This document shows positions 16,813 through 49,414 of a stretch of 64,000 nt of DNA, piece after piece. The stretch's first letter is position 1. Every line of letters starts with the position of its first letter. The position numbers were made by a program, and so were the translations under genes. This stretch comes from Porpolomopsis calyptriformis (taxonomy: Eukaryota > Basidiomycota > Agaricomycetes > Agaricales > Hygrophoraceae). The DNA is taken from assembly GCA_951640195.1 (NCBI GenBank), contig OX621163.1, forward strand, positions 3,844,001-3,908,000, in the 5' to 3' direction. The notes under the pieces were generated by a model. That model had not been told where the DNA came from. It saw only the letters and a program-made list of their open reading frames with translations, and did not search any database.

Positions 16813-16872
16813 TGAGTCGCGGGTCCGGGCCCACTGTGCGTCGAGTGACGACTGGGCATCACTGAGGGGGCG

Positions 16873-18792: not shown

Positions 18793-18921
18793 GTCAATAT
18801 CTTTATTAATTTCTGTGGGAGGAATTCATTTAACTCTGGCATCAATAGGTGTAGGCAGTGCCTTAATAAAGTCTTTGTCGTGATGAGGCTTCAGTACCTC
18901 AGTTGGGAGATGAGTTTGGAA

Positions 18922-20535
18922 TCATAAGGGGGCAGCTTTAGGTGTAGTGCTTGGGAATGGGTGAGAACCTTGGGTAGCAGCTGTGCTTTCTTTCCCTTTG
19001 GTCCTAGACTTTATAGGGGGATAGACTCCATCAAATACTTCCTTCCTAGCTGTAGTAATCTTGTGAGGGACTCTGTCTGCTGCCATAACTTGTACATCCT
19101 CATCCTGGACTTCTGGCTCATACTCAGTGGCTGGGATTACATATACACCTGAATCATCTTTTTCAAACTCAGGTTCTGATAGGTAGTAATCTGAGCAATC
19201 ACTTTGCAGAGTAAGGAAATGAGTCTGGATGGGCTTAGTCTTGTCTTGAGTGAGTCTTGCTACAGCTTGGATAAAGGTCTCTTCAGGGAGTCGACGAATA
19301 AAAGCACCATTCTTGAATACTAGCTTCCTATTTGCATCACGTATAAGTGTGCCTGAAGCAATGAGTTCATCAATCTTGGGACAACTAGACATTCCATGTC
19401 CTTTACTTCCACAACCATAACAGGTGATTGTGTCTCCAGTATTCCTGGGACTAGTATTGGATATAGGGAATGTGTTTGAAGAGGGAAGCATAGAAGATCT
19501 TGGTGAAGATACTCGAAGAGTAGGTGGTTTGATACACCTAGCTATATCAGGATCAAGTTTGAGGGCTTTATAGTAGGCAAGTCCATAGCGTAAATCATCT
19601 AGGGAGAGTTTTCCCATCTCTTTGACAAGAGATTCTACTTCATCTTGGACTGGAGTAGTAGACTTGCTAGATGCCTTCTTACCCTTGTGATCTTCTTTCT
19701 TCTGACTGGTCTTCTTTGAGGGTTTCTTGAGATCTTCATCATCAGAATCCCATCTGCTCTTATGGGACTTCTTACCATTATTCTTCTTCTTCCTTCTAGG
19801 TCTCCTTTCGACTTCACTTTCTTCATCAAATGATGAAGAGTTATCACTAGATGTGTCTGACTCTGTTTCATCATCCCTTCCAGGAATATCTGAGTCAGAG
19901 TCAGCTAGGTTGATATCAAACTGATTACGTTCAAATAACACTTCAGCTACTTTGATTACTTTCTTCATAGGGAATGGGGAAGTAACATCCAGAGGGGTGG
20001 TTCCAGAAGCATTAATAAGTCTGGCTTCAATCACCTGTCTGAGAGTCTTGTTAATTCCATTCCAGAAATAAGCAGCTTGTTCGTCTTCTGAGATTCTCTG
20101 CTTGGCTTGTAGCCATCCTGCAATAGTGATGAATCTTCTTTCATACTTCTTCCAACGTGTTAATGAATGGATTTGCCTAGTCTTCCACTTACGAGTGAAA
20201 GAGAGGAGGTCTTTGACAATGTATCGAGTTTCCTTTAAGGCAGCATCATAGTACCTATTGAGATCAGCTTCCAGCTTGGGCCAATCATTGGTCCTATAGC
20301 TTTCAAGGGCTTCAATTAACTGGACTACTTTACTAGAACAGTAGTCAATGAGGTGTTCACCCTTCTCCACATCAGGTACATTGTAAACTTTACATAACTG
20401 ATTAAAGTGTCTGAGGAAGTGCTTGATTTGTTCATGGCTTCCACTGAACTTAGATGGAGCAGACTTCTGTCCCAGAAGGGGCATCATGTCTGGGGTGCGT
20501 GTAAACTGAGATTGGACTTGAGACTGTCCAGACAT
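18922..20535 (-). CDS. gag: Element A Gag with CCHC zinc knuckle
   Basis: 537 codons from an ATG (MSGQSQVQSQ). A capsid-like domain covers about residues 25-215 (FSGSHEQIKHFLRHF, WPKLEADLNRYYD, FWNGINKTLRQVIEARL). A Ser/acid stretch and a Lys-rich stretch follow (215-300). A zinc knuckle CYGCGSKGHGMSSC (C-x2-C-x4-H-x4-C) lies near residue 370. The start is chosen because the 5' LTR and primer site lie about 95 bp upstream with no earlier ATG in frame. It packages the element RNA by family knowledge. Confidence 0.9.
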   Translation of the reverse strand: MSGQSQVQSQFTRTPDMMPLLGQKSAPSKFSGSHEQIKHFLRHFNQLCKVYNVPDVEKGEHLIDYCSSKVVQLIEALESYRTNDWPKLEADLNRYYDAALKETRYIVKDLLSFTRKWKTRQIHSLTRWKKYERRFITIAGWLQAKQRISEDEQAAYFWNGINKTLRQVIEARLINASGTTPLDVTSPFPMKKVIKVAEVLFERNQFDINLADSDSDIPGRDDETESDTSSDNSSSFDEESEVERRPRRKKKNNGKKSHKSRWDSDDEDLKKPSKKTSQKKEDHKGKKASSKSTTPVQDEVESLVKEMGKLSLDDLRYGLAYYKALKLDPDIARCIKPPTLRVSSPRSSMLPSSNTFPISNTSPRNTGDTITCYGCGSKGHGMSSCPKIDELIASGTLIRDANRKLVFKNGAFIRRLPEETFIQAVARLTQDKTKPIQTHFLTLQSDCSDYYLSEPEFEKDDSGVYVIPATEYEPEVQDEDVQVMAADRVPHKITTARKEVFDGVYPPIKSRTKGKESTAATQGSHPFPSTTPKAAPL

Positions 20536-20630
20536 AGTAAGTGTTGAATACTAAGTTGGGAGTTATGTTGATGAGTGGGGTCTGAATAAGTTGGGGAGTG
20601 AGATTACAATCAATCACAATCACCCCTCGC

Positions 20631-20641
20631 GGTGGGCTCCA
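20631..20641 (-). promoter_or_regulatory. Primer-binding-like site of element A
   Basis: TGGAGCCCACC in coding orientation, five bases after the 5' LTR end. The same 11 bases occupy the same place in element C (36602-36612). It begins TGG, as expected for pairing with a tRNA CCA end. The tRNA was not identified. Confidence 0.65.
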
Positions 20642-20646
20642 AATTA

Positions 20647-21675
20647 TATCAGGTGAAATATAAATACTTCACTTCTAGGACTACTGGAGTTATACGTCAA
20701 TCAAGTAGGTCCTAGTTGTTCGGGGGAGATGTGAGTTGATTGGGTAATGATCACTTCCTCCTTTGATGGGGCTTGAGTAATCCTTGGCTAGGATGTACAG
20801 ATGAGCAGGCTATCCAAACTCAATGGATAGTATTGACTGGGAGAGCAAGAATGAAGTCAACGGCTGACTTAGAAGAATATGTATCACAGTGAGGTCTCTC
20901 CAATAAGGACTGAGACTTAGAGAATGTGATGAATAAGCAGGGGCTGAAGTAAGATAAGATAGTCCTCGGTGGCTATCTTCAACTTACAGAAATACGTCAA
21001 GGGGTGATTCCTAAGTTGGTTCTTAACGTAAGAGGGCTTAGGCGAAATCACACAGGGTATAAGCTTAATAGACTAGATTGGATTGGATGTATTGACTACA
21101 GACAAGTAGTATCAATAAGGGGTAGTACTAGGTACTGAGTACTAGGGGTGAGTTCAAGGGAAAAGGGGGAGAGTGGACTAGGGGAGGGGAGTGGGGTAAA
21201 AGTGGGTTGAAAGTGAACTGAACTCCTCACTGGTGAAAAGGGGGCCCTTTATATATGTTTGAGAACAATGGGCAATGAGAACAATAGGAAATAAGAACAA
21301 TGGACAAAAGAACAATGAGGAGTTTGAATTGTGACTCACTATGAGTCAGACAATGAGGAGAACAATGGGGAAGATTAATATGAGTCATAGTGACTCAGAG
21401 AACAATGGAGTGATGACAGAACAATAGAGAAATGGGATATGAGTCATTCTGACTCAGAGAACAATGGGAAGAATGCTATTGTCCATGATAAGATAGCATA
21501 AGTAAAGATAGTAGTGTATCTTATCTGAGATAAGATAATGTGTGAAGGACAGTGATATCTTATCTAAGATAAGATCAGATAAGATAAGATAAAGGATATT
21601 TGAGCTATGGATGCTACTTGCTGAATGCATGATCTTTGGTTAAGTTTGATACCAAATCAGTTTGGGATCATGACA
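20647..21675 (-). repeat. 5' LTR of element A
   Basis: 1029 bp, nearly identical to 9123-10151, with the same TATA box and motif arrays at 21244-21597. Flanked on the right by the target duplicate ACTG. Confidence 0.93.
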
Positions 21676-22441
21676 ACTGCCCCTGTCTTTCTTGATTGTG
21701 ATTCCTTTCACTACCATCTCCAGCGCATCCCCTCTGATGCTGACCTCTGTTGGTCTTCTTTCTGCTGTTTCACTTGCGGTGGCAAGCATAAAGTCAAGAA
21801 GTGTCTGTTCATTCGCTAGCCAATCTAGCATGCTTGCAGTCTGATGGAGGATCCGCTTGGTGAGTGTCTTGTTTTGTCTTCATTAGTCTCTGTTTATTGA
21901 TAATAGGCTTTCCCTTTCTTAGTTTGGGATGATGACGCCCCTCCCCCTACTTCCCAGCTCCCTTTAGAGGAGCACGTTGATTGGAGTTCTGATCGTTGGG
22001 GGCACCCTCTCCCTTTTGCTGATCCTAAGCCTGAGCACTGGGCTGTCAGTCCCCCCTTCCATCCTTGGACCCCTAGTCCAAGTCCTGTTTCTAGTTGTAA
22101 GCTCTCAACTCTCTCACTCTTTTTATGTTCATTGACTCCTTATCTCTTTAGTGGAAGATTTATCGACATCATTGACCAATGTCAATGTCAAGATCGAGGA
22201 GGAAGAAGTTCCTCCCAGTTTGTTGTGGAGTTCTACCAATGATTGGTTGGGCAAAGAAGCAAGAAAGATTGCGATGAGTTTTGTCAAGGGGAAGGCTGCT
22301 GAGTTGCAGGCCTCTGGTGGAGATACCAATGGGGCAATCTACTGGGGCAATAAGTTGGCCACATTGGATGGTCAAGTAGTCTCAAGTTTCATAGAGTTCC
22401 TAAGGGATAGTATGGTGCAGGAGATTACCAAGACGGACTAG
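21676..22441 (+). pseudogene. Gene X copy 2: remainder of exon 1 and exons 2-3
   Basis: After the ACTG duplicate the frame resumes: FLDCDSFHYHLQRIP, then CFTCGGKHKVKKC, a small Cys/His motif. Exon 1 ends at 21859. Introns are 21860-21922 (GTGAGT...CTTAG, 63 nt) and 22097-22151 (GTAAGC...TTTAG, 55 nt). Both splice in frame. Exon 3 (SLTNVNVKIEEEEVPPS, WLGKEARKIAMSF) ends with TAG at 22439. An in-frame TAG at 21817 is present in both copies, so either the short 68-residue product is real or the stop is ancestral. Function unknown. Exon structure is well supported by the copy at 6285-7337. Confidence 0.65.
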
Positions 22442-22597
22442 TCTAATTAGTTAGTCAGACATAGACCTCCCCTTTGTACAAATAGTCTCTGCTGCTAATA
22501 AAGACAGCCCCCATCCAAAGAAAATAGGCATAGAAAAGAGAGGAAAAGAATAGAATTTTTAAGAGAGTGAACGCCAATTTCATGACAGCTACCTAGT

Positions 22598-23377
22598 CAC
22601 AATGTCCCATTACTCCCCCTACTGTCAGGTATCAACCCTTCCCATTCCAACAACCTACTCAACCTTCTTCACCTTTAACAACACCTTCACCTTCACTATC
22701 ACCACCACCAATGGGTTCTCACGCTAATCCCCCTGTTCCCAACCTCAATGAAATCCTCACAATCATGAATAACTTGCAGAGAGAAGTAGCTGCTCTCCAA
22801 GCTTCCAACATGCAACAGGCAATGGAGATTCATCATCTCATTCAACAACTTGCTGCCCAAGCTCAGCCTTAGCCCCCACTGCAACCTCAACCGCAACCTC
22901 CTACCACTCCCACTATTGAAATTAAGATGGCCAAACCAGATGAGTTTACTGGTCGACAGCAGGACGTTGACAAATTTATTAACAGCTGCAAGTTATATTT
23001 CATGGGAAAACTGTACCGCAATGAACACAAGATTCCCTTTGCCCTTTCTTTCATAAAAGGGACCATGGCCCAAACCTGGGCTGAAAAGGAGACCAATGAT
23101 ATGAGAGCTGTCAACTGGACTAGCCCAACTGCTACCTGGGCTGCATTTGTAGCTCAATTCTGATCTACATTTGAAGGAATCAACAGACAGTCTCACGCTC
23201 GTAATGACATCAAGAACCTCCAACAGGGAAGAAAGAAGATTGAAGATTATAGCCTGCGCTTTGGCACTTTACAGGTTGATACTGGTTTTAATGATGCCAC
23301 CCTCATCAATCTTTACCAAGCTGGACTTGACAGCAAGTTTATAGAATTTATTTACCGACTCCCTGCTATCCCCACCA
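22598..23377 (+). pseudogene. gag: Element F gag fragment
   Basis: Gag of a chromovirus-type gypsy element. A Pro/Gln-rich N-terminus with a short coiled coil (22711-22870) is followed by the capsid part (KMAKPDEFTG, LYFMGKLYRNEHK, FVAQF). A TAG near 22870 and a TGA near 23161 replace Gln/Arg-type codons. It is cut at 23377 by the LTR of element G within the segment YRLPAIPT. No 5' LTR was found. Confidence 0.7.
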
Positions 23378-23757
23378 TATTATATCGGCAGTAGTAACTC
23401 AGGTCGCTTTGATGTAAATCACAGAGAAGCTAGTGCATAAACTAGCAGTGACAACATTGAAGAACAGAACTGGGGTATGTACAAGCATTCTGTACTCTAC
23501 TTATACTCCACCCAGGTCTGGACTGTGATTGTGATAACCACAACAACAATCCATGGAATGGCTGACTAATGTGCAGTATTGCGCAGCCTTGCGCAGCTAC
23601 TGCAGAGTTGCTGCACAGCATGTCTTCATCAGCCAATAGCGTTATTGCCTCTAATCTAGGAGAATATAAATAGAAAGATTAGATAAGGGAAGATAACATA
23701 AGATAAGACCAAAGATAAGGAAAGTGGTTGAGACAACAAAATGAAGTAGCCGTGACA
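23378..23757 (-). repeat. 3' LTR of element G
   Basis: 380 bp. In coding orientation it starts TGTCACGGCTAC just after a purine tract (gaagagagggtga) and ends GCCGATATAATA next to the element F gag. Only one copy is in the window. It contains AT-rich GATAAG-like words (23670-23710). Confidence 0.6.
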
Positions 23758-23769
23758 TCACCCTCTCTT

Positions 23770-26059
23770 CAAATTCACATCCACACAACCTTAGAACAGG
23801 CATTGGAGATGTCTTGAACAGTCTCATAGTAACCACTGAGGTGCATAACAGGGAGAGGTTGGGAGATGATATTGGTATCACCAATGGATTTCCAGGGTAG
23901 ACAGAGGGGAAACAAGTTAGTACATTCAGAGCATTTAACCATAACTATCTAGTTGTAGAATAGCCATGATTGCATTGATAGGACTGGTTTCATAGATCCA
24001 TGCTTAATGAGTGGTTGAAGGCAAATGAGGGAAGAAGATAGAACCATTGAAATCACAGTCAAGTAGTTAGTCGACTTCTGTGGGGTGGAGAGTAATGAGA
24101 ACGTCAATATTGTCACTGACCTTTGGCGGTTTGTAATCCTCACCAGTGGAGTCTGTGATTGGATCATAGAGACATTTGTCAATTCCAAAGAAGTTATCCA
24201 TTCGAATGACACATAGTCGGAGTTGAGGGGCTGGTCATTCAGGGTGGAGAGTGTGAAACTCATCAACCAATTCCTGGGTGTTCTTGATGTTTGATTCAGG
24301 CTCCCAAGTGTTTTCTTCACTGGTGTAGCCTTCCCAGTGTACCAAGTATTGGAGTTTTCCTCATCGCAGATGAGAGTCTAGGATTTCATTAACGAAGTAT
24401 TCAGAGTCACCTTCGAGTTGGATAGGAGGAGGGGGGGCAGGTTTTTTCTGATTAGGAAATGAAGGAGATCGATAAGGAGAGAGGTATGATTCATTGAAGA
24501 CTGGATAGAGTCCCAGCCATTCGGGAGGGAGTTCGAGCTTATAGGCAGAGTAGCTAACTTTCTCAACAACCTTAAAAGGACCGAAGCATTTGTTATCAAG
24601 CTTCTTCATTAGTCATTTGGTTTTGATGTTGGTGGCAGCTAACTATACCTTGTCTCCTGGTGAGTATTCTTGAGTAGCTTGGATGTGCTTGTCATGAGCA
24701 GTCTTCATCATTTCGTTGGCTCTCCTGAGAGTAGCTTTGGCTTCCTGGTGGACATTTTTCATACAATCGGCAAATTGAGTTGCAGATTCGTTTCAGACTT
24801 CTCTCATAGTATTGTTTCCTTTCCAGGGGTTCTGACCATAGTTGACAAAGAAGGGAGTTTGTTGTGTGGCTGTGTGGACTGAGTTATTGTATGAGAACTT
24901 TGCTAACGCAAGCCATTCCTTCCAATTGTCTTGATGATGATTGATGAAGATGCGAAGGTATTGTTCGAGCATCTGGTTCATTTGTTCAGACTGGCTGTCA
25001 GTCTGGGGATGATAAGCTGTGGAAATGTTTGGGGAGGTGCCCAGAAGATGGAAGAGATTGGTTATAAACTTGGAAACAAATTGCGGATCGTGATTGTGGA
25101 TGATGCATCAGGGGATACCGTGATCTCAGATGACACAATCCTGGATGATTTTTGCGAACCCTTCAGAGTTCAGCTCGATATGGGTGGCCTCGAACTTGGC
25201 GGCCTTTGAGAAGTGATCAATGATCATGAGGATCGCGTTATAGCCCTGACATTCAGGTATAGGGCCAATGAGATTGACCATGATCATATCCCAGGGTTGA
25301 GGAGGAGGGTCAAAGGGATGGAGCAGGGTTTTCATGGGTAATCGGGATGCCTTGGTTCACTGGCACATTTCACAACCACAGATATAAGTCTCAACATCTC
25401 TCCTGATGGTGGGCCACCAGTAGTTGCAACACACAGCTTCAGAGGTCTTGAAGGAGCCATAGTGTCCAGAGAGAGGATTATCGTGGTATTGAGCAATGAT
25501 TTCACTGTGGAGTGGGGTGTCCTTTGAGATGTAAGTCTGGTCCAAGAAGGTCTTGATACCGTTATCTCAGGTTTTCCAATCGGTTTTGCATTTTTCTTGA
25601 AGGAGTGTGGCTTGTTTTTCTTCATTTCAGTACAAATTTTGAATCCAAGAGTGGAAATTAGTGGGTTCAACTTCATGCTGAACCTGATGGAGGTCTACAG
25701 TAGGATGATCTGGGGTGGGGAAGAGATTAGCTGGGAGTAAAATAACATTGTCATTATTGTTCACCCCCTCTTAAAACCTAGTCGTCTCAACAGGATATCA
25801 GCCTTGGAGTTGGCCTTGCCGGTGACATAGTGGAGAGTGAAGTGATAGTCTTGAAGCTCTGTGAGCCACCTAGCCTAGCACCTATTCAGCTTCTGAGGCA
25901 GTTTGAAGTATTGGAGGTTGGTGCGATCCATCCAAACCTCAAAGACTTGCTTAGCAGATAGTAGCTATTTGCAGAATTCTTAGAGCGCAGTTATGATTGC
26001 AAGCAACTCGTGGTCATAAATCTGATAATTTCATTCCATGGGGTAAAAGCCTTGGAGAC
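23770..26059 (-). pseudogene. pol: Element G pol remnant: RNase H end, integrase, chromodomain
   Basis: Minus-strand chromovirus pol truncated at 26059 by the element D LTR. The end of RNase H (YDHELLAIITAL, then FTLHYVTGKAN) is followed by the integrase zinc part (GHYGSF, CGCEMCQ). In the core the first catalytic Asp appears as Asn (MIMVNLIGP). The second is in NHDPQFVSKF and the Glu is in SQSEQMNQ. A C-terminal chromodomain follows (YFVNEILDSHLR, LQYLVHWEGY, NTWEPESNI; about 24270-24420). At least ten in-frame stops are present. In chromoviruses this domain directs insertion to heterochromatin. RT and Gag are missing. Confidence 0.8.
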
Positions 26060-37228: not shown

Positions 37229-38996
37229 CCACTGCTCTGGTTGATAGCGGAGCCTCTGGAAACTTCGTGGACGAATCCTTTACAACTTGCCACAATTTTA
37301 CTCTAACATGATTGGAAACCCCAATCCCCATATGGAATGCTAATAGATCTGAAAACTGAGGTGGACCCATCGAGAACGATATTGATATTTGGTTAGAGGC
37401 TCCTGGAGGATACAATGAATGGATCCAATTAGAAGTGACCGATCTCAGATCTAAGATGGATATTATCCTCGGCTTCCTGTGGCTTAGAAAGCACAATCCC
37501 AACATCGATTGGAAAGAGGCAACACTGGCTCTAGATAGCAAAGAGATCCTCCATCAATAGATAGTCAGCGATGCAGAGTCACTGGGAATGGAATTGGTCA
37601 TGCTGGCTATGAATCGATGCGTATCGAAGTCAGATGAATCCTGAGCCAGCATGGTGGAAGAAGATATGCGAAAGTTTGTACCAGAGGTATACTGGAAAGA
37701 CTACTCTAGCGTCTTTGCCAAAGAATCCTTCAACTGCCTTCGACCACATTCAGAATTTGACCACACTATAGAACTGGATGAAACCTTCAAACCAGTCAAA
37801 GGCATGAAATATGCAATGTCCCCTCTTGAGATGGATCACTTATACAAGTTCATCGATGAAAACCTATCTACTGGACGAATACGAACTTCCAAGTCGAAAC
37901 AAGTCTCTCCATTCTTCTTTGGGAAGAAAGCTGAAGAAGTGAATGCTAAAGGTAAAAGCACTGGTTTACGCCCTATTGAGGACTATCACTACCTCAATGA
38001 ACACACAGTTCCTGACTACTATCCCCTCCCCCTTCTTCACCAGATACTCCAACAACCAAAGCTTTTAACAGCATCTCTGTTTACATTCATGGATATCCAA
38101 TGGGGATTCAACATCAGGATCAAGGAAGGCAACAAATGGAAAGCCACTTTCATCACTGAAGCAGGTGCCTTCGAACCTACTGTAATGTTCTTTGGTTTGT
38201 GAAACTCTCCAGCCACCTTTCAATGGATGATTGACACAAGATTCAAAGAAGTCCTAGATTCTAGAAACATTTTCATCTATATTGATGACGTGCTTGTTTG
38301 TGGAGACGATTTACAAGAACTGCGATACTGGACCTTTAAAACTCTGGATATCATAAAGAGATATGGACTCTCATGCAAACCCATCAAGTGCCAGTTCGAG
38401 AAGGAAGAAGTCATCTACCTCGGAGTAGTCCTATCCAAAGGACGAATCACCACTAATCCAATGAAGGTCAACGCTATCATGTCCTGGCCTATTCCAGAAA
38501 TAGTGAAACAACTCCAATCCTTCTTAGGCAGTGCGAACTTTTGGTGAAGATACATCAAGGGTTTTTCCAAAGTCACTACCCCTCTCTACAAACTCTTGCA
38601 CAATGAAACTGTGTGGGAATGGACCCCTCAAAGACAAGAAGCTTTTGACAACATCAAATCACTTTTGACGAATGCACCCATCCTTTATATTCCTGATCAC
38701 GATCTCCCTTATTGTCTAGAAACTGATGCCTCTATCATCAGAATCGCAGGAATACTCTCCCAACTTCATGATGGACATTGGAAACCTGTTGGCTATCATT
38801 CAAGATCTACCTCCCCTGCTGAAAAGAACTACCCTACTCATGATCTGGAACTCCTGGCGATCATTGACTCTTTCGAACAATGGCACCACCTCCTCGAAGG
38901 AGCAAGACATGATATCCTCATCAAAACAGACAGTCTGGCTTTACGATATTTCTCCAAGAATCTTCGCTTGTCGAATCGCCAGACTCATTGGTCTGA
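37229..38996 (+). pseudogene. pol: Element D protease, reverse transcriptase and RNase H (truncated)
   Basis: Continues element D after element C. Protease ALVDSGASGNFVDE; RT with HSEFDHTIEL, FGKKAEEVNAKGKSTGLRPI, DIQWGFNIRIKEG, the catalytic YIDD (FIYIDDVLVCGDD, about 38276) and SFLGSANFW; RNase H with CLETDASIIRIAGILSQ and YPTHDLELLAII. In-frame TGA at 38200 and 38545, the latter at an Arg position. The frame is otherwise open over 1.3 kb. It is cut within RNase H at 38996 by element E. Integrase and 3' LTR are missing from the window. Confidence 0.88.
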
Positions 38997-39191
38997 TGTA
39001 ACAGATATGTTACATACAGCCACCGTGCTGTGTTTGTACATATTTGTACCGGATACCTTAAGTACTGGTTATGCTTAGGTAAACAATAAGTTTACATCCC
39101 ACTCCCACTTATACCAGATTGCCCTAATACATTGGTTCTGTGCATATCCTAGTATTGAGCAAAGTGTGATAACTTATCCCCAACCCTTACA
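38997..39191 (+). repeat. 5' LTR of element E
   Basis: 195 bp. Contains inverted pairs TGTAAC/GTTACA and GTAAAC/GTTTAC. Unusually short for a gypsy element. Confidence 0.9.
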
Positions 39192-39802
39192 CTTTTTTGC
39201 ACATCCACAAGAAATTGTGGAATATCTGTGTAAATCAACCTTGATTGAAAAAGCTTCCCTGTAAACGACATGGCCTCCATCAATGATGAAGATCCACATG
39301 AAGACTCGAATCACGTGGGCCTCAACGGCGCGCAACTTGCAAGGCAAACCGCCTAACGACGATGACCTGGGAATGGCGCAGATGAGCACCGTCGCTGATT
39401 CCGGTGTGCTATGTCACGACCTCAGTGACACCCAAAGACGGCCAGCGTTGGCCATAAATTCACCCCAGAGTGAACGAAGACATCGTGCCAACTTAGATGA
39501 TGGCAGTTCCTAACTTACGGAAAGAGAGGAGTCAGCGTGTAAGTATGACAATCGACCCAACGCTCGATACATTAATGCACACCCTCACTAAGGGTCAAAC
39601 AAGGACAGGAGTCCCTTCCTCATCATGAATCCTGAATGAACAAGTATACGTTCATCAAATGTTAAATCTATTACAGTGTAATGAAATAGACGATCAATAT
39701 GAGCAATGAGACCTGTCGCCCACACCCAGTCAGATGTCGACTGTGACCCATACTAAGAGATGAAAAGAAAAGCGCCTGCAGAACTGCAAGGCACCAAGCG
39801 AG
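39192..39802 (+). other. Element E leader, no primer site recognised
   Basis: No TGG-starting primer site follows the LTR. The first 30 bases contain a perfect hairpin with stems TCCACAA and TTGTGGA and a GAAA loop (39204-39221). More inverted pairs follow (TGTCAC/GTGACA near 39411, ATGAAC/GTTCAT near 39636). Confidence 0.6.
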
Positions 39803-41500
39803 ATGCTCTCCAACATAGTTGATAGGGTCAATGCACTCATTCAGACAAGAACGGGTGGAATAAGTCATGATGAATTCATGAAGCTAGCCAACAACCTTAA
39901 CAAGGTTATAGTGCATAAGAATAGCGACAACACCTGTCGAAATAAGATGGATATAACCATTCGTCCAGATAGGGACAAAGAAGATGAACTTCTGCAACAA
40001 GCGGAAGCTGAGCTTCGCCATCCTCGACAAGACGAGGCGAGTTCCATCTATCAGAGACAGCAAGCCGCGGCTGATCAAGTCGATAAACATCGACATGGAA
40101 GTAAGAAAAGGAACAACCGGAACAGATCGTTTGAACAAGAAAATGAAGTGGCCTTGAGACTGGGCACATTCACACTCAAGGATAGAGTGGCTATCCAAAG
40201 GTTGAGAAATGGCGACATCTATGAAACCGGAAGATCCGGCCTGGACGATCAAGGCATCACCTTTGACACCTCTGGAGAAACCATAGATTTATGGGCAGAA
40301 GGACAAAATGAGTGGTCCAAACGAGACCACAGGCTGCCCTCAGATAGAAGGCAGTATCACCAGTCAGACGATGGTGATTCAGACGACCCAGATCAAGGAT
40401 CGTCTTCTGATGATGAGTCCGATCGTAGCGAAACGACAGACACTGGAAGTGACCAGTCGAGAAATCGACCATCCGATGCTACTGGACATGGTAGTAAGAG
40501 AACGTCTAAACAGACGTCAAAAACAACAATACGACACAGAAGTTGTAGCCATAAACCTCATAAATATGAGGGGAAAGATTGATGCTCTGATTACCTCAGA
40601 GACATTCATTGTAAATATCATAAATTAATTGATGATCAAGTGGGCAAACCACTGAAAGGAAACCTATCCAGTCTCCGAACCTCATCACCTAAACTGCCTA
40701 CTCCAAAAGAGTATAGCGATGAGGAGGACATTGAGAAATTTGATGGGTGGCTTCAATCATTCTTGAGATGGTTGAAATTGTCCAACTATGCTGGACCTAA
40801 TACTGAGCCAGAGTGTATCGCTTGAATGGCTATTTATCTTGTGGACAAAGCAAGACAATGGTTTAACGACAATGTCGACAGCGTGTCTAGGCAGAAACGC
40901 CAATGGACATTTAAAGAGGTCATCACCGGACCGTACAACCAGTTCATTCATGAAGCATCCATACAGGATGCTACGACAAAATTCTATTCGAGAAAGTACA
41001 CCACGGAAGGTGGTGTCTCAGGATTTTTCTATGACCTTGAGAGGTACGCAGGTCATATGATACACGAGCCTGACTTGTATATGTTTAAAACCCAATTGTT
41101 ATTGGGTCTACCTGCAAGGATAACCAACGCAGTTGTCCAGAAAGGTGTTACCACCAAAACCTCGTCACTTGAGATGATCCTTAAAGTTGCTTGACGTGTT
41201 GAAGAGAGTATTCGAATAAAGCATCGCTACGATGAGCGATGCAAGGTGACATCTGGAGTAACCAGTCAGCCTAAAGCAACTGCGAATATGCAGCCGCCAA
41301 CAAATCAGATGATGAATAAAGAGACGCCATCGTATTCGAAGCCAGTGTACAATAAGTACGCTAACAAACGAGGTCCATACTGACCATATAGACCGACTGA
41401 CAACCATCAGCCTTACAGACCACCGCCAAATAGACCTAGTGGTTCTGGAAGTAAACCGACGCCGCAGGCGCCAGCATATAATAAGAACCAGACAGGATCG
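39803..41500 (+). pseudogene. gag: Element E Gag (N-terminal acidic domain and capsid)
   Basis: Start ATG at 39803. The first 259 codons are charged: a helical part, then an acidic Ser/Asp stretch (DDGDSDDPDQGSSSDDES), then a Lys/Arg-rich end. After a TGA (40580) the same frame continues as a capsid domain (PKEYSDEEDIEKF, MAIYLVDKARQWF, YMFKTQLLLGLPARI). Further TGA codons at 40823, 41192 and about 41381 are at Arg-like positions. One frame throughout. Confidence 0.82.
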
Positions 41501-41506
41501 TCTGGT

Positions 41507-42385
41507 GTGAAATGCTACGCGTGTGGCAAATTTGGCCACTATGCGACCAATCCGAAATGTCCCAATTTTGGGAAACCCCGAATGGCAGCAATCCAAGAGG
41601 GGGAGGATGCATTCAAAATGGTAGCAGAAGACGCTATCAATGAGAACGACCAAGAGGCAGATGAGCTTCACAACAACTACAGAATCGTAGTTGAGGAAGA
41701 GGAGGATGATCCTTTACAAGGATCGCAGTATACATCACAAGGTGAAGAGTATCACCTCCAAGAATATGATGAGTATGAGGAGTACTCACAAGAGGAAGAC
41801 GACAATAACATCGTCAACAAACAAATACGTTCAATAAGAGAAACAAGTAACTCTGCTCGTGAATTTATAGCATCTATAAATGACAAACAAGTGTTCAAAG
41901 AGGACACTCAACCCAAATCATGGGTTTGTAAGTCCAGCAGACAGCAGGACTGCCCAGCGAAGCTCAGCACGAAAGTAAGGCCTTTAGTGGCTCGCATGGA
42001 ATTAAACAGCCTCGTAGCCATTGTAATGTTTGATACAGGCAGCACCTCTGATGCCATTAGCCCAGAATTTGCGAGAGTTGCAAATTTGAAAATATATCAG
42101 TTGAAGGACCCTGTTCCGATCCAACTAGGATGCTGCAGTAGCAGATCGCGGATTAACTACAGTACTTACTGTCCTGTGCGATACTTTCGTATCGCAAAGA
42201 AATACTACTTCGATATCGTAAATATCAACAGATTCGACGCTATAATTGGCATCAGTTTCATGCGTGAATTCGAAATTATGCTAGAGCCTAGCGCGAACCA
42301 GATAATGGTCCGCAGGGTAGCTGCTCCCGCTCTTACTGAAGGGGAGGAAAATGACGAAATCGTGTGCAGACAATCACTGCAATGA
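41507..42385 (+). pseudogene. Element E zinc knuckle and protease
   Basis: Same frame as Gag. A knuckle VKCYACGKFGHYATNPKC (C-x2-C-x4-H-x6-C, longer last spacing than the usual x4) is followed by a very acidic stretch, then the retropepsin motif IVMFDTGSTSDAISP (about 42020) and IIGISFMREF (about 42245). Ends at a TGA (42383); another TGA follows at 42407. Confidence 0.82.
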
Positions 42386-42412
42386 ACTGAACAAAGGTCT
42401 GCTGAATGACTA

Positions 42413-44185
42413 GTGGATGCAGAACCAAAAGGTTCTGCAGGGAAGACGTCTGGACAGGACATCATAGAAACTGACAAACCAAAAGAGTTTGTCAAGGAGT
42501 TTTCAAGAAAAAGGTGTTCAGACGCGAACACAAAGAAAATAAAAGAGAGTACCCCTACCGGGTCTAATGAAAAGATGCTACTGAGTGTAGCTCAAATTGT
42601 TCAACCGAATGAAAGGACCAAAACGTCCCTCACACATGAGGACAGACCTTGCCTTCGAGCCAAATGGATCGAAGTGTGCCAAGATATCATGCACAGAGTA
42701 CCCAAGGAATTGCCTCTGGTATGTGGTGTCAATCACCACATACCTCTTATCAATGAAGATAAGAAGTACAATTATTACCTTCCAAGATGTCCAGACTCAC
42801 TAAAGCCTCAGCTTATAGTGAAGATCGCACAGTATACCCACACTGGATGGTGGGAATCGGTGCAAACTGATCAAGCAGCTCCGATGCTGTGCATTCCAAA
42901 GAAGAATGGCACTCTACAGATGCCAATTGATTGTCGTAAATGCAATGACAATACTTTGAAGGACATTACGCCCTTTCCTAACCAAGACCAGATCAGATAT
43001 GATGTGGCCAGCGGAACAATAAGGTCAAAAATCGACCTATCAGATGCTTATGAGCAGCTACAGACAGTACCTGAAGACGTGCATAAAAGTGCATTTGCAA
43101 CTATATATGGCACCTACGTGAGCCATATAATGCAGATAGGAGACTGCAACGCACCCGCTATGTTCCAGCAGGTAATGACAATGATCTTTTGAGATTTTAT
43201 TGGCATATTCATGCATGCCTATCTTGACGATCTATTTGTCTATAGTGCTTCTGTCTCAGAGCACGAAAAACACTTGGGTCTTGTGTTTGGTAAACTACGA
43301 GAATACAAGTTCTACCTCCAAGAGGAGAAGTGCAAACTGTATGCTGATGTAATCGACTGTCTAGGTCATAAGATAGATGACAAAGGGCTACACACAGATG
43401 CCGATAAAATGGCGAGAATATGCGATTGGCGACAACCGTGCAATTACAATGATGTCCAGAAATTTATAGGACTCATACAATATCTGGTGCATTTCCTGCC
43501 AGATATCTCAAGTTATACAGGGCCGTTAGCAGCCATGACAGTGAATGGGCAACCGTTCGCGTGGAGACCAATCCACGATAAATGCTTTGAAACAATAAAG
43601 CAGATATGCTGCTTGACACCTATACTAGTGCCGATACATCACAAGAAAGATGAACCTATATGGGTCATCTGCGACGCCTCAATACATGGCATCAGTGCAA
43701 TGTACAGACAAGGTCCTACCTGGCAAACCTGCAGACCAGCAGGATTTATGTCGCGAAAGTTTACAGATGCTCAATGGAATTATTGTATGTTCGAGCATGA
43801 AACAATCGCGATACTTGAAGCCCTACTTAAATGGGAGGACAAACTGATAGGATATCGGGTTCACGTTGTGACCGACCATCAAGCTCTTGAGTTTTTCAAG
43901 ATGCAAAGATGCCTGTCTAGCCGACAAGCTCGTTGGATGGAATACCTATCAAGATTTCACTTTGACATAACATACATCAAAGGGCAACTGAATAAAGTTG
44001 CCGATGCATTGTCACGTTATTATGAAAGTGATACATGGTATGACGCTCATCCTATGAGTGAATACGTAGATGTAGATATATGTCTAGACCCAGAAAAGGA
44101 TGATCTCCCTTGGGATCGTCTAAATGAAATTAATACTGGAGCCATCAAAATGAAGGCTATCCAGGTCATCGAAGACATTCAATGA
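42413..44185 (+). pseudogene. pol: Element E reverse transcriptase and RNase H
   Basis: RT: CIPKKNGTLQMPIDCRKCN, SKIDLSDAYEQLQ, GDCNAPAMFQQVM, then after a TGA at 43190 (Arg position) the catalytic YLDD (HAYLDDLFVYS, about 43213-43245). RNase H: WVICDASIHGISAM, EHETIAILEALLKWED, VVTDHQALEF, VADALSRYY. Both pieces are in one frame, which is also the Gag frame. Confidence 0.9.
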
Positions 44186-45865
44186 CGCTGAAGCAATCGT
44201 CTTCTTGAAAGAGAAGAAGATAGAGATGTGCAAGTGGCAGCACTCGCGCTAGTTCCAATTCCAGAAACAGAACCGATGAAAAAATTAAGATCGTCCCCAG
44301 ACGATCCAACAATATTCCAATCCCATAAATGAGGAGAGAACTTGCGCGCTTGTATAGAGCATGATGAATCACTGACAGTAGCAATTCGCGGAGGATACAT
44401 ATCCGACGCATTATTCAGCAAGGTTCTCAAGAAACCTGATCACCATAAGGCATTCACTGTCCATGAAGGCCTGATTTGGTCCAAGAATTTGGGGGGAGAG
44501 GAAGTACTATGTATCCCATCTGCAAAGATGGGACAAGAATCAATTTTCGGCCTGATCATTGATCAAGCACACTCAATAGTGGGCCATTTTGGTCCATAAT
44601 GTACCGCCGACTATGTAAGATGATGGTACTGGTGGCCTAAGATATTTAGCCACGTCAAACAATTCTGCAAGTCATGTCAGACTTGTCAAATGTCGAAAGA
44701 CGATATGCAGCACCCGACAGGACTGTTGCATTCATTACCCATACCCACGAAACTGTGGCAATCAATAGGAATGGACTTTATTGGTCTGTTTCCTGAAATT
44801 GATGGGTACAATTACCTATGGGTAGTCATTTGTTGAATGACATCAATGATCCACCTAATTCCGGTGAATACCAAAACGAAAGCGTTAGAGCTTTCATGGA
44901 TCTACTTAAAAGAAGTAGTAAGGCTTCACGGCCTTTCCAAAAGTATAGTCTCAGACAGAGACTCGAAATTTACCTCCAAATGGTGGAGCAAACTTCACAG
45001 GCTCTTAGGAGCTAAACTATTGATGTCTACATCTTTCCATCCTCAGATGGATGGCGCAACTGAACAAGCTAATTGTTCAATAGGTCAAATCCTCTGAGCA
45101 ACCATAAGCTCGGATCAACGAGACTGGATCACAAAGATCCTGATGACCAAATTCGCAATTAACGCAAGTATCAGTGAAGCTACAGGCTTCGCCCCATTCA
45201 AGCTGAACGGAGCATATATGCCCGCTATGATTAAGCAGGTAGAAAATACTGCTGAGACACCGCCAGGTATCCAAGCATTTGCTCAACAAGTGCTGCAGAA
45301 TCTGGCAGCTGCTCACGACGCGATCATTGCGCATCACGTATTTCAAAGATACTACGCTAATCAGCGTAGAAGGGAAGAACCGTCAATTAAAGTAAATGAC
45401 TTCGTGTACCTATTGACTAAGAACCTTAAACTACCGCAAGGTAGAGCAGGGAAACTACTGCCAAGGTTCGTTGGGCTGTACAAAGTCGTACGGGCTTTTC
45501 CTAATGAATCCAACTATGAGTTGGAACTCCCCGACGAGCTCGCGAAGTGACGGATTCATCCGCACTTTCACATAAATTTGCTGCATCCGCACCATCCGAA
45601 TGATGATGCGTTATTCCCTAACCGAGCGTCAGTAGATGCTTATGATTTCGGTGAACCACTTCAAACTGAATGGTTAGTCAACGAAATAGTCGGCCATAGG
45701 TGGGACAACTGAAAACTTGAGCTAGAGGTTCGTTGGAACCTCAGAGACATGACTTGGGAGCCCATATCATTGTGTAAAGAGCTTAGCACTCTAGATAAAT
45801 ATCTAACCCTAATGGGTGTAGATACCCCTCATCAACTGCCGAGATGGCCAGTTAAGAGGCACTGA
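44186..45865 (+). pseudogene. pol: Element E integrase with chromodomain-like C-terminus
   Basis: Zinc part (HSIVGHFG; CKSCQTCQ). Core with D in GMDFIGLF, D in VSDRDSKFTS and E in GATEQANCS, a full set. C-terminal part PRFVGLYKV, then a chromodomain-like end (EWLVNEIVGHRW, LEVRWNLRDMTWEP, about 45670-45760). Stops: TGA at 44834, 45095, 45548, 45709 and 45863, TAA at 44597; all but the last interrupt conserved stretches. No frame changes. By family knowledge a chromodomain steers insertion to methylated-histone chromatin. Confidence 0.85.
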
Positions 45866-46110
45866 ATGCTGACTGCACTCAGAGCCTTGAGGTGTGCCAA
45901 CAAGCACACTTTGTATGCGCGCTAAACCGAGCATGACTGATAATTGCCTTAATCGGCAATCAACGGACCGGACATACCTGGTCTGGTGGCAGACTCACCC
46001 CAATTGGGGTAATTAGAGGCACCAGAATGATGCCACAAGTCTAAGTGTGACTTGTATAAAAGCACGATAAACAAAAAACAACAGTAGAAAATTTTCTACC
46101 CCATACGACA
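45866..46110 (+). other. Element E spacer with a row of perfect hairpins
   Basis: Noncoding. In order: GTGTGC/GCACAC (about 45892), ATTGCC/GGCAAT (about 45945), the 14-base palindrome ACCCCAATTGGGGT (45997-46010), ACAAGTC/GACTTGT (46035-46055) and the 16-base palindrome GTAGAAAATTTTCTAC (46084-46099) just before the ORF2 ATG. A TATA-like tataaaag at about 46055 could start a separate ORF2 transcript. Confidence 0.7.
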
Positions 46111-47172
46111 ATGTTGAATGAAAACAACACGCCCACAAGCGTAAGAACAAGCCCCCGCCCTGTAGACCCAAGACCACTGGAAATGGTGGAAGACAACGGG
46201 GATCAGCTAATGGCTGGTCCCGACGAAGTCATCAGATCCCCACACCAGACACGGCGTAGGCCCTCTTCTGAAGGGGAGAGAGAGTACCGCTCTCGACAAA
46301 ACACAAGTAACTTATCAGAGTTACCCCCGAAAACATGGGTGTGTAACAGCACCATCAATGTCGCGATACACTCCAGTCACCAGAGGTGTAAAGTCTGCAA
46401 AGACTATGTAATCCATGTTGTCGAAGACAGTGTATACCAAGACGCCTCATTGAAAGAGGCATTCGATGACTGCCGCAAGGCACACCAAGAGGAACTTATC
46501 ACAAAGATCCGAAACCTAACCGTCTCACTCGAGAAGGCTCAAGATGATGGTGATTACTATTGCGCTTGTTATGAACAAACTCAAGATGAGCTTTATCAAG
46601 CCAATCAGCTCATAGCCAAGCTGAACAAGTCTAACGACACTAGCGAAGCCGAATCACTAGGAAAGCGCAAGCGCTCCTGTACCGAGGGATTGCATTCACA
46701 ATTGTCAGAATACACAAGGGCGGCCAGCCCTGTGACCAAGACCCCCTCTGCCCAAGACAAGGGCAAGGAAAAAGAAACTGACGAGGAGGCTTAACAAAGA
46801 GCTGATATGGAACATTTTGATCCATACTTGGACGACGAGTTAGCAGGCTGTAGCCTGATGTTCAAAGACCTCGACAAGGAGGATAACGCATACATCAAGA
46901 GACGCTTCCCTCAAATCATTCAAGAGAATGAGGAACTGAAGGCTCACCTTCAACCTACCTCGTATGTCGAGTTCCCAAACCTCCTAGATCCCGGAGTGAA
47001 TAATCAATCTGGCCCTAGTGGCGAGATGATCAAAAAGCGCAAGAAGTGCTTGACCATTACTGCTTGGCCCAGCATCCCTGCTGGGGCCCATTACTCACCC
47101 ATTGACCAGACCATCTGGGTTGGCGCAAGCGCTGAAGCAGCGCGTGTCACGAATCTGAAATTCGAGACATGA
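46111..47172 (+). pseudogene. Element E ORF2 (about 353 codons, one internal TAA)
   Basis: ATG at 46111. The N-terminal 75 residues are Pro/Arg rich. A Cys pair (CKVCKDYVIHVVED) follows, then a coiled coil (about 125-180: LVSLEKAQ-like, QDELYQANQLIAKLNKS) and a basic patch (GKRKRSC) that could be a nuclear signal. A TAA at 46792 fits a Gln codon (CAA). The frame goes on as MEHFDPYLDDELAG... to a TGA at 47170. No known domain. Position after integrase matches the accessory ORFs of A and B. Role unknown. Confidence 0.6.
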
Positions 47173-47245
47173 GATCGAACACGCTGAGGCCGTCTCTCAT
47201 GAACGTTGAGCAGATTCTAGCCGGTCACATGTAATATGGTATATA

Positions 47246-47335
47246 CACTGGGAACAACCGAACTGGGTAAGTCCAGTTCTGCGACGTTTTGGCTTAGTGG
47301 TCTAAGCCGTTGCCAAGAAGCACATGTTCCCAGTG
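47246..47335 (+). ncRNA. Possible three-arm structured RNA in element E
   Basis: Perfect outer stem CACTGGGAACA (47246-47256) with TGTTCCCAGTG (47325-47335), 11 bp. It encloses two perfect 7-bp hairpins: GAACTGG/CCAGTTC with a 6-base loop (47260-47279) and GGCTTAG/CTAAGCC with loop TGGT (47291-47308). The second hairpin contains TGGCTTAGTGG (47290-47300), which fits a tRNA A-box. A convincing B-box is not seen. It lies in the gap between ORF2 and ORF3. Structure is seen; function is a guess. Confidence 0.5.
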
Positions 47336-47365
47336 CAATTCTTAACAGCGCAATGAAATGAAGCA

Positions 47366-48568
47366 ATGGGATTGCCCCCTCTGCGTGGAACTCAATCTGC
47401 GGATGACCGTGGATACCCCATCAATGCGCGCCAATGGCACGCTCTGTTCATTCAAGCCCAAGAATCAGGCAACAACAAGGCTCTCAAACTTGCGCGATCG
47501 TTCGTCACGACAGCACAGGCGACTCCTCGAGAGAGCAGAACGGACACTCAATGCATCATGTTAATCAATTGGAGAGTTCCCACCTGGGCTTCAGGTGATT
47601 CCACCGACACACCTGTACAGGTGCCGACCTCTTCTGTACCTGGATGGATTAACCTGTCTCAGCTAACCACCACGAGTTCCCCGGAAGAGTGGGCTCATTG
47701 GTTCTACATAAACTGCTGTGCCGCGCACCCTGGAGTGCGCTTAGAATGAGATGGCAGCATTTCACTGCGAAGCCTCCGCAGGATGCTTTTGGTTAGTCGA
47801 CACAAACCAAAGTCACCTAAGACCCGTGCTCCCGCTGGATCATCGACAGACGCCGACCAGATATGGTCGCAATACATCAGAGCAGCAGCCCTCCTGTTTG
47901 GAATGCCCAGCCGCTATCGCTCACTTGTGACGGGATCAAACCTGTCCATTGCGGAACCCACCAGAGAACCAGCCTAGTACTCTGGATCATCCAATGTCAT
48001 GGAACAATCCCTCATTCTGTTCTTCACCAGACAAGGTATTACATTTGAACAGGTGGACAACGCCTTTGCCTATGCCTTTCAATGGCTTGAGGACACCCTC
48101 CAGGGTAATGTCTCAGACTTATCCTCCCTCGAGACATACAGAGAGTCTGTGTGTAATACATTGGCAAGGAATGGTGTTCCTTCATCACTTCGTGACAGAA
48201 ATGACACATGGTTCCTGGATGGATGTCCTCACCAACGTCCCCAGTCTCGTATCTCGTCTAATGACAAGTCTGTCACCCCATCCGCAGGCCTTATCACCCA
48301 AGACGCGTTTGATGCATCTAACTCGTTCACTCGGTGTGGACAAATCACATACACGCTTGCCGAGCATGGATCACCCCATGGCTGGGACTCATCCCACACT
48401 TCGCGATGCTGTTTATGGCGCAATTCACAAGACAGCGCTGCACCACCAGGCAGCGATAGCGAGCAAGTTTCACTTGGCTTGCCGATACCTGAACCTGAGC
48501 CAGCTTCGCTTCAGGAATGTATTGATAGTACGTCAGAGATACCTGACATCCCAATGGACTACGGATGA
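47366..48568 (+). pseudogene. Element E ORF3 (about 400 codons, two internal stops)
   Basis: One frame from ATG 47366 to TGA 48566, broken by TGA at 47747 (Arg-like) and TAG at 47975 (Gln-like). It begins RGYPINARQWHALFIQAQ and continues as helical segments (NKALKLARSFVTTAQ; SPEEWAHWFYINC; IRAAALLFGMPSRYRSL; FEQVDNAFAYAFQWLED) and a Ser/Pro/acid-rich tail. As far as I recall, proteins of this kind are common hypothetical proteins in mushroom genomes, and their position here ties them to a gypsy element. No catalytic motif is seen. Confidence 0.6.
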
Positions 48569-48700
48569 ATGTAGTCGTTGCCGCAGTTGTATTACTATGG
48601 CGTTTATTTTCTATTTCCCTTAGTTATTTCTATGCAGTATATAGATTGTTTTATGTGTGTTCTGCCTGGCTATCAGGCTTAACTTACCCTGGCAGTTAAG

Positions 48701-48714
48701 CCAAAGGGGGAGGA
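48701..48714 (+). promoter_or_regulatory. Polypurine tract of element E
   Basis: ccaaagggggagga directly before the TG of the 3' LTR. Confidence 0.85.
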
Positions 48715-48909
48715 TGTAACAGATATGTTACATACAGCCACCATGCTGTGTTTGTACATATTTGTACCGGATACCTTAAGTACTGGTTACGCTTAGGTAA
48801 ACAATAAGTTTATATCCCACTCCCGCTTATACCAGATTGCCCCAATACATTGGTTCTGTGCATATCCTGGTATTGAGCAAAGTGTGATAACTTATCCCCA
48901 ACCCTTACA
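48715..48909 (+). repeat. 3' LTR of element E
   Basis: 195 bp, same ends and hairpins as the 5' LTR. Confidence 0.9.
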
Positions 48910-49414
48910 TATTCTTAAATTCCATTTTGCAAAGAAGTAAAGTTATGAAAGGTAGCAAAAATATGCATAGGAGTGCAGTCACCCTAGCATTGTTATTCAA
49001 GTCAACCAAAACTATTTATATACATATCATACACAACACTGTAGTCGAGACAAGTTAAATTTCATGTACCAATCCTAATCACATAATAAATAAGATTTTG
49101 GAATATGTTAGCTGTCGCAGATGAAAATTAGGCAAAATTCATATCTTTTTGATAATGAGATGATCAGTGCAAGATCTGTTTTCCTCTCTATCTCTTTGTT
49201 ACAATGACTAGGTACAATCAAAGGTAGTCACCACTATGCCAAAAGCATCACAATACCAAGCTCATTTTGGTATGTGGTACCCAGTATATATACAGTTGCA
49301 CATTGCATGCCAGGGTTATGACTGGACCCTAACACTCTTGGCCTCCAACTCATAGGTGTGGTGGGCTTGGGGGTTTGAATGCTCCATCTGCCAGAACACA
49401 TATGAAGACAACAA
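48910..49414. other. AT-rich intergenic sequence, nothing recognised
   Basis: No gene, LTR or continuation of element D pol is visible, so the right flank of element E is not the sequence that its left flank would predict. Confidence 0.5.

Follow-up and report, generated by a model that had tools for sequence, protein, structure and literature searches.

A decayed Ty3/gypsy-type element with short perfect hairpins

The window analysed here is a stretch of 64,000 nt from Porpolomopsis calyptriformis (positions 3,844,001 to 3,908,000 of contig OX621163.1, assembly GCA_951640195.1). It contains, on the forward strand at 38997–48909, a decayed Ty3/gypsy-type long terminal repeat (LTR) retrotransposon, referred to as element E, which carries short perfect hairpins throughout its length. 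The element is bounded by a 5′ LTR (38997–39191) and a 3′ LTR (48715–48909) of 195 nt each, a TG...CA pair with a purine tract immediately upstream of the second repeat, as in Ty3/gypsy elements, and the two repeats differ at 6 of 195 positions, all by transitions. A target-site duplication of 5 bp is absent around the element (flanks TCTGA at 38992–38996 and TATTC at 48910–48914) and may have been lost or recombined away. By eye, no TGG-type tRNA primer site was seen directly 3′ of the 5′ LTR (39192–39221), and a 7-bp hairpin begins 12 nt downstream of the repeat.

A gag-pol frame without frameshift runs from 39803 to approximately 45748 and presents the Ty3/gypsy order of protease, reverse transcriptase (RT), RNase H and integrase in a single frame, the integrase core being recognised by eye, outside the Pfam scan. 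Eight pieces of the element were scanned against Pfam (protease, RT/RNase H, integrase tail, gag and four downstream open stretches). The zinc knuckle and aspartyl protease piece (41507–42382) exceeded the cut-off for zf-CCHC_6 and RVP_2, the piece with the end of the RT and RNase H (43211–44182) did so for RVT_1, RT_RNaseH and RT_RNaseH_2, and the SH3-like integrase tail (45143–45547), downstream of the core, barely did so for SH3_Tf2-1, while the gag piece and the four further open stretches within 46111–48568 returned no accepted match. The frame is interrupted by 16 in-frame stops (15 TGA and one TAA), compared with 0–8 in the RT piece of other E-family copies; this abundance of TGA would fit C-to-T decay at CpG sites rather than recoding.

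The RT/RNase H of E found 410 protein matches, and the 120 listed among these are 51–76% identical to it, in a comparison made with proteins alone; the named relatives among the matches listed are Agaricomycetes, including Hypsizygus, Pisolithus, Trametes and Moniliophthora. A search of viral and genome contigs returned no DNA of E relatives from outside this genome, which are represented by proteins only. Towards the 3′ end, a 201-nt segment with two 7-bp hairpins (47145–47345) is found in E and its sister L055, is absent from L056–L058 (three of the four other aligned 3′ copies) and is skipped by most genome matches.

Hairpin excess in element E

Hairpins were defined as perfect inverted repeats with a stem of at least 6 bp and, unless stated otherwise, a loop of 3–10 nt, and were counted against 200 local dinucleotide shuffles of the whole element and 300 codon-preserving shuffles of 39803–45748. 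The whole element contains 77 hairpins compared with 16.7 ± 3.9 in its shuffles, and the excess persists at stems of at least 7 bp (33 against 4.3) and at least 8 bp (10 against 1.1). The pol frame contains 50, compared with 12.7 ± 3.6 and a maximum of 25 in the codon-preserving shuffles, with 24 against 3.8 and 8 against 0.9 at the two longer stem thresholds, respectively. The excess in pol thus uses synonymous choice, as had been proposed in the initial annotation, which was made from the letters alone, and an artefact of composition or codon usage as the source of the hairpins is rejected on the basis of both types of shuffle as well as by the span controls described below. The downstream frame 46111–46791, taken on its own, holds just 2 hairpins against 0.9 in codon shuffles.

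The excess was further claimed to extend over coding and non-coding sequence alike, and this is confirmed for the whole element, since 11 of 11 segments are enriched 2.7–7.2-fold, with the minimum at the 3′ end and 3.2-fold in RT/RNase H. All 13 hairpins singled out in the initial annotation are perfect inverted repeats, although the one at 41221–41242 has a stem of 8 bp and not 7, and the eight stems of at least 6 bp with loops of 3–7 nt reported for 44830–45530 were counted again, two of them overlapping. The density had been overestimated: instead of a hairpin every 50–100 bases, the mean spacing is 131 nt, slightly more even than random (coefficient of variation 0.71; random 0.72–1.12). 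The longest perfect hairpin has 11 bp and a loop of 5 (42718–42744), many copies carrying one A.C mismatch in it at a CpG/TpG site. Other examples are a 9-bp hairpin with a loop of 4 (42418–42439), an 8-bp hairpin with a GCAA loop that is among the best conserved across copies (44514–44533), and a 7-bp hairpin with a loop of 4 that is identical in all four other copies of that end compared (47068–47085).

Loops of 4, 5 and 6 nt occur in 20, 16 and 17 hairpins, against 2.7, 1.7 and 2.0 in shuffles; the counts are near background by loop 10, and pooled loops of 11–40 nt show no excess in E (54 against about 58 expected). When resolved by exact stem length at loops of 4–6, the enrichment was 1.0, 1.5 and 2.1 for 3, 4 and 5 bp and 7.0, 14.6 and 14.6 for 6, 7 and 8 bp. 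The 6- and 7-bp stems are GC-richer than chance stems. The codon register of the pol hairpins (15, 15 and 20 against 4.8, 4.1 and 4.0 expected) was non-discriminating.

A strong excess in one family of the genome

The genome (33.5 Mb in 17 contigs) was searched with a 324-residue query from E, giving 123 scored matches, 37 of which span at least 305 of the 324 residues at 81–100% identity; below these came shorter E-family fragments and then other families at 30–33% identity. Thirty E-family pieces from the 37 matches, E itself (L001) included, were analysed, all homologous to 41711–45682 of the window and some with unrelated flanks. Every one of the 30 is enriched in hairpins (3.1–7.1-fold) and has a folding energy 11.6–29.3% better than shuffled sequence, whereas the corresponding values for 20 loci from other gypsy families of this genome were 0.9–2.3-fold and −2.2 to +7.6%. 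In the two end regions, four further copies each have 10–16 and 9–12 hairpins, next to 11 and 12 in E.

Within the window, hairpins had been judged by eye to be far fewer in the integrase of element A and the RT of element D, and the counts bear this out for element A, whose integrase (2 against 2.0) and RT (4 against 3.7) are at chance level in codon shuffles; two other frames of element A reached 7 against 2.8 and 7 against 2.9 (2.4–2.5-fold). The remaining 8-kb blocks gave 0.97–2.9-fold, the highest being 16001–24000 with 41 against 14.2 and loops of 3–4. Perfect 7-bp stems, measured against control spans, are enriched 7.5-fold in E, 3.0-fold in L031–L038 (related copies of another gypsy family, thus not independent), 2.3-fold at 10–21 kb (the element A region), 1.9-fold at 21–37 kb, 1.7-fold in L039–L050 and 1.2-fold at 50–64 kb. 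E therefore stands apart, with other elements showing modestly elevated values.

Three further observations concern these other sequences. In L031–L038, the values for G.U (1.4-fold) and A.C (1.0-fold) mismatches are the opposite of those in E. Element A has GC-rich perfect stems of 8–11 bp with loops of 3–7 at 16289–17436, as part of its weaker hairpin excess. A non-coding cluster of short near-palindromes of the TGAGTCA... and TATCTTATC... types lies at 21123–21575, and since the motif recurs in sequence flanking L022, an E-family copy, it is part of another repeat.

Folding energy and strand asymmetry

The folding energy of E, assessed in 66 windows of 150 nt, was 23.0% better than shuffled on the forward strand and 18.0% better on the reverse strand, and shifting the windows gave 19.9% and 18.0%, respectively. 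With 80 overlapping windows of 350 nt, the excess over dinucleotide shuffles was 19.3%. Gene-bearing DNA at 50–64 kb showed no such excess in 55 windows (−0.8%, i.e. about 0). Shuffled E planted with 60 or 90 hairpins reached merely 6–15%, so that E has structure beyond the counted perfect stems, which may consist in part of decayed hairpins. The strand difference, initially 5.0 ± 1.65 and 5.3 ± 1.6, was not robust: shifting the windows reduced it to 1.9 ± 1.8, and symmetric nulls made by planting hairpins spanned −1.3 to +4.4.

Decay of the copies and a single loop inversion

Differences among the copies are dominated by CpG-type transitions (11,223 of 15,150 differences in the 60 closest copy pairs), which represent decay after insertion. 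The initial annotation had suggested that related copies be compared for compensatory changes and for an asymmetry between G.U and A.C. The raw numbers of the two mismatches are similar (252 against 316; 1250 against 1215 cells in the larger set), but because the copies differ chiefly by CpG decay, such counts carry little information, neither for nor against selection, and they were replaced by the fixed mismatches described below. Widespread compensation was not found. Column pairs with two Watson–Crick types, each in at least 2 copies, made up 60 of 701, and 54 of these 60 lie in a CpG context; double CpG decay accounts for most of this apparent compensation, which was therefore not counted as evidence of RNA selection.

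Between E and its sister L002 (99% identity), 38 of the 3972 sites are different: 33 of the changes are transitions, one is a lone transversion, and the other four form a single cluster of adjacent bases. The cluster (42185–42188) forms the loop of an 8-bp hairpin at 42177–42196 and is the exact reverse complement between the two copies; just E and L015 among the 30 copies have the loop state of E. A second candidate loop inversion, at 44422, was accounted for by CpG decay, and multi-base rewrites of an arm between relatives were not identified among the E copies.

Fixed mismatches and the perfection of the stems

A mismatch was regarded as fixed when at least 90% of the copies in a set of 21 out of the 30 carried it, and stems over spans of 12–47 served as the control. 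Perfect stems are enriched at hairpin spans 4.9-fold at 6 bp, 9.2-fold at 7 bp and 21-fold at 8 bp, whereas stems with a single fixed mismatch reach 1.0–1.6-fold at 6 bp and 0.9–2.6-fold at 7 bp. Fixed imperfect repeats are thus nearly absent at these two lengths, as expected if template switching perfects the arms. Fixed G.U pairs were found in 28, 13 and 7 stems of 6, 7 and 8 bp against 23.2 (1.2-fold), 8.2 (1.6-fold) and 2.5, and fixed A.C in 46, 21 and 14 against 28.7 (1.6-fold), 11.3 (1.9-fold) and 3.7, so that G.U is not enriched above A.C in the 21 copies. Past the first mismatch of the stems of E, bases pair no more often than background and G.U shows no enrichment (6 against 10.4); the stems end abruptly. 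Among 6-bp stems with one mismatch, those within reach of closure by a synonymous change made up 48 of 225 at hairpin spans, proportionally fewer than the 319 of 1042 found for control spans (p 0.006); the proportions at 7 bp (24 of 97 against 120 of 386) and for 8-bp stems (12 of 54 against 37 of 118) lean the same way without reaching significance. An asymmetry of A-containing mismatches in stems was also considered and set aside; it seemed strand-specific against shuffles, yet AA, AG and AC are at 1.1–1.9-fold at 6–7 bp against the span controls.

Origin of the hairpins

Sense-RNA folding should tolerate G.U pairs, whereas Watson–Crick copying should not, and the pattern of fixed mismatches consequently favours template switching. 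Together with the abrupt stem ends, the short loops, the indifference to coding and the one loop inversion, it leads us to favour perfection of the hairpin arms by template switching during the element's own replication over selection for folded RNA, with a probability of roughly 45%. Template switching has been described to perfect arms and to invert loops (PMC8794818, PMC8604942). The ancestor of the E family would already have been saturated with discrete perfect Watson–Crick hairpins, with stems mostly of 6–9 bp and loops of 4–6 nt. A growing strand that folds back or switches template would make near-palindromes perfect, by homogenising the arms and at times inverting the loop, and the perfected hairpins would be kept wherever the protein permits. 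The site would be the RT of the element or a long single-stranded complementary DNA (cDNA) stage, which is likelier than host replication because other gypsy families of the genome show little hairpin excess; these family limits are the only evidence that points to reverse transcription as the stage. After insertion, the copies would decay, chiefly by C-to-T changes at CpG. A broader form of this reading, on which we are more tentative, is that the lineage's own reverse transcription continually perfects near-palindromes, making the element self-complementary where the protein permits, so that hairpins spread by mutation bias and not by use.

Several observations weigh against perfection by template switching. 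At 8 bp, several kinds of fixed mismatch are enriched 2–4-fold, in small counts and far below the 21-fold of perfect stems. No second clean loop inversion was found among the 30 copies, leaving a single switch event in all. In the RT piece, amino acids specified by stems are as conserved as the rest, at no cost to residue conservation, in agreement with the earlier remark that the stems sit within conserved RT and integrase motifs. Enrichment of A in loops and flanks is confined to the forward strand, and hairpins are more stable in the sense than in the antisense orientation, by 0.23 kcal/mol (p 0.009). With each copy's own stems used, shared non-CpG variants in stems of at least 6 bp occur at 0.58–0.60 of the rate elsewhere (0.43–0.47 at third positions), while singletons are not depleted (0.87–1.09). 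For stems of at least 5 bp the values are 0.57–0.81 and 0.78–0.98, respectively, and control spans of 15–30 gave 0.91–1.07 for shared variants. Such depletion is as selection predicts, although repeated arm correction would produce the same. Of the shared changes in stems, 6 produced A.C, 5 produced G.U, 2 moved towards pairing, 1 was compensated and 1 was of another kind, a single position being counted twice; as they lead mostly off pairing, arm correction is not seen to keep pace in the recent burst.

The constraint in the stems and the A-rich loops lend some weight to selection for a folded sense RNA over the whole element, which could serve to evade RNA silencing, to aid packaging or to control translation and which we regard as unlikely, though a serious alternative. 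The 19.3% energy excess of E is above the 15% given for SARS-CoV-2 and near the maximum of 23.4% named in PMC7642675, and it tops that of the shuffled sequences with planted hairpins. Synonymous choice in the pol hairpins, GC-rich stems with A-rich loops, the slight advantage of the sense strand and the depletion of shared but not singleton variants, a pattern described in PMC7642675, would follow as well. On the other hand, G.U is handled like any other mismatch, stems with loops of 11–40 are not in excess, the strand energy difference lies within the range of the symmetric nulls once windows are shifted, and the stem depletion is of modest significance (p 0.009–0.17 in six copies tested singly). 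The initial annotation had spoken of a whole-element hairpin code: the whole-element excess, the synonymous choice and the family limits hold; a function for such a code is not shown, and neither template switching nor RNA selection is established.

Selection for hairpins on both strands (in DNA, in cDNA, or in sense and antisense RNA), for example by slowing sense–antisense annealing, would tolerate neither G.U nor A.C and would fit most facts, including stems confined to Watson–Crick pairs, an energy excess on both strands and constraint in the stems; we nevertheless consider it improbable, as any such function is without direct support and the A-rich loops are confined to one strand. An artefact of composition, codons or repeats, or a host-wide DNA process forming hairpins everywhere, would account for the mildly raised values of other elements (1.7–3.0-fold for 7-bp stems, 2.9-fold for 16001–24000) and is highly improbable, given that E stays at 4–8-fold in both types of shuffle and against span controls and that 50–64 kb is without energy excess and at only 1.2-fold.

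Relation to known systems and significance

Template-switch mutations at inverted repeats, as described in PMC8794818 and PMC8604942, resemble the situation in E in arm perfection and in loop inversion, of which E has one exact case. The events treated there belong to DNA replication at single loci; the proposal for E is that a whole element became saturated, probably at the stage of reverse transcription. Genome-scale ordered RNA structure (GORS), for instance in coronaviruses (PMC7642675), is similar in the size of the energy excess, in having coding and non-coding hairpins and in fewer shared variants at paired sites. E, an LTR retrotransposon, differs from the systems of that paper in its predicted stems, which are short, perfect, wobble-blind and abruptly ended; it shares with GORS the energy excess over dinucleotide shuffles and lacks G.U-tolerant sense pairing. 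The coding palindromes of nematomorph mitochondria (PMC6649704) are likewise perfect inverted repeats in conserved coding regions, and imperfect repeats are in little excess, which the authors there take to suggest a repeat-conversion mechanism. Those palindromes reach 284 bp and lie in mitochondrial genes, whereas the stems of E have 6–11 bp and lie in a nuclear mobile element. Among the titles listed in the literature searched, none describes an LTR retrotransposon saturated with hairpins.

If the hairpins are a product of copying, a mobile element can acquire statistics that resemble those of structured RNA (energy excess, synonymous choice and stem constraint) with no RNA selection involved, and the comparison of G.U with A.C among fixed mismatches would give other genomes a simple test. 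If they are a product of selection, the folding-energy excess of this retrotransposon would equal that of the most structured RNA viruses. In both cases, the question can be tested directly with the relatives of E from other mushroom-forming fungi.

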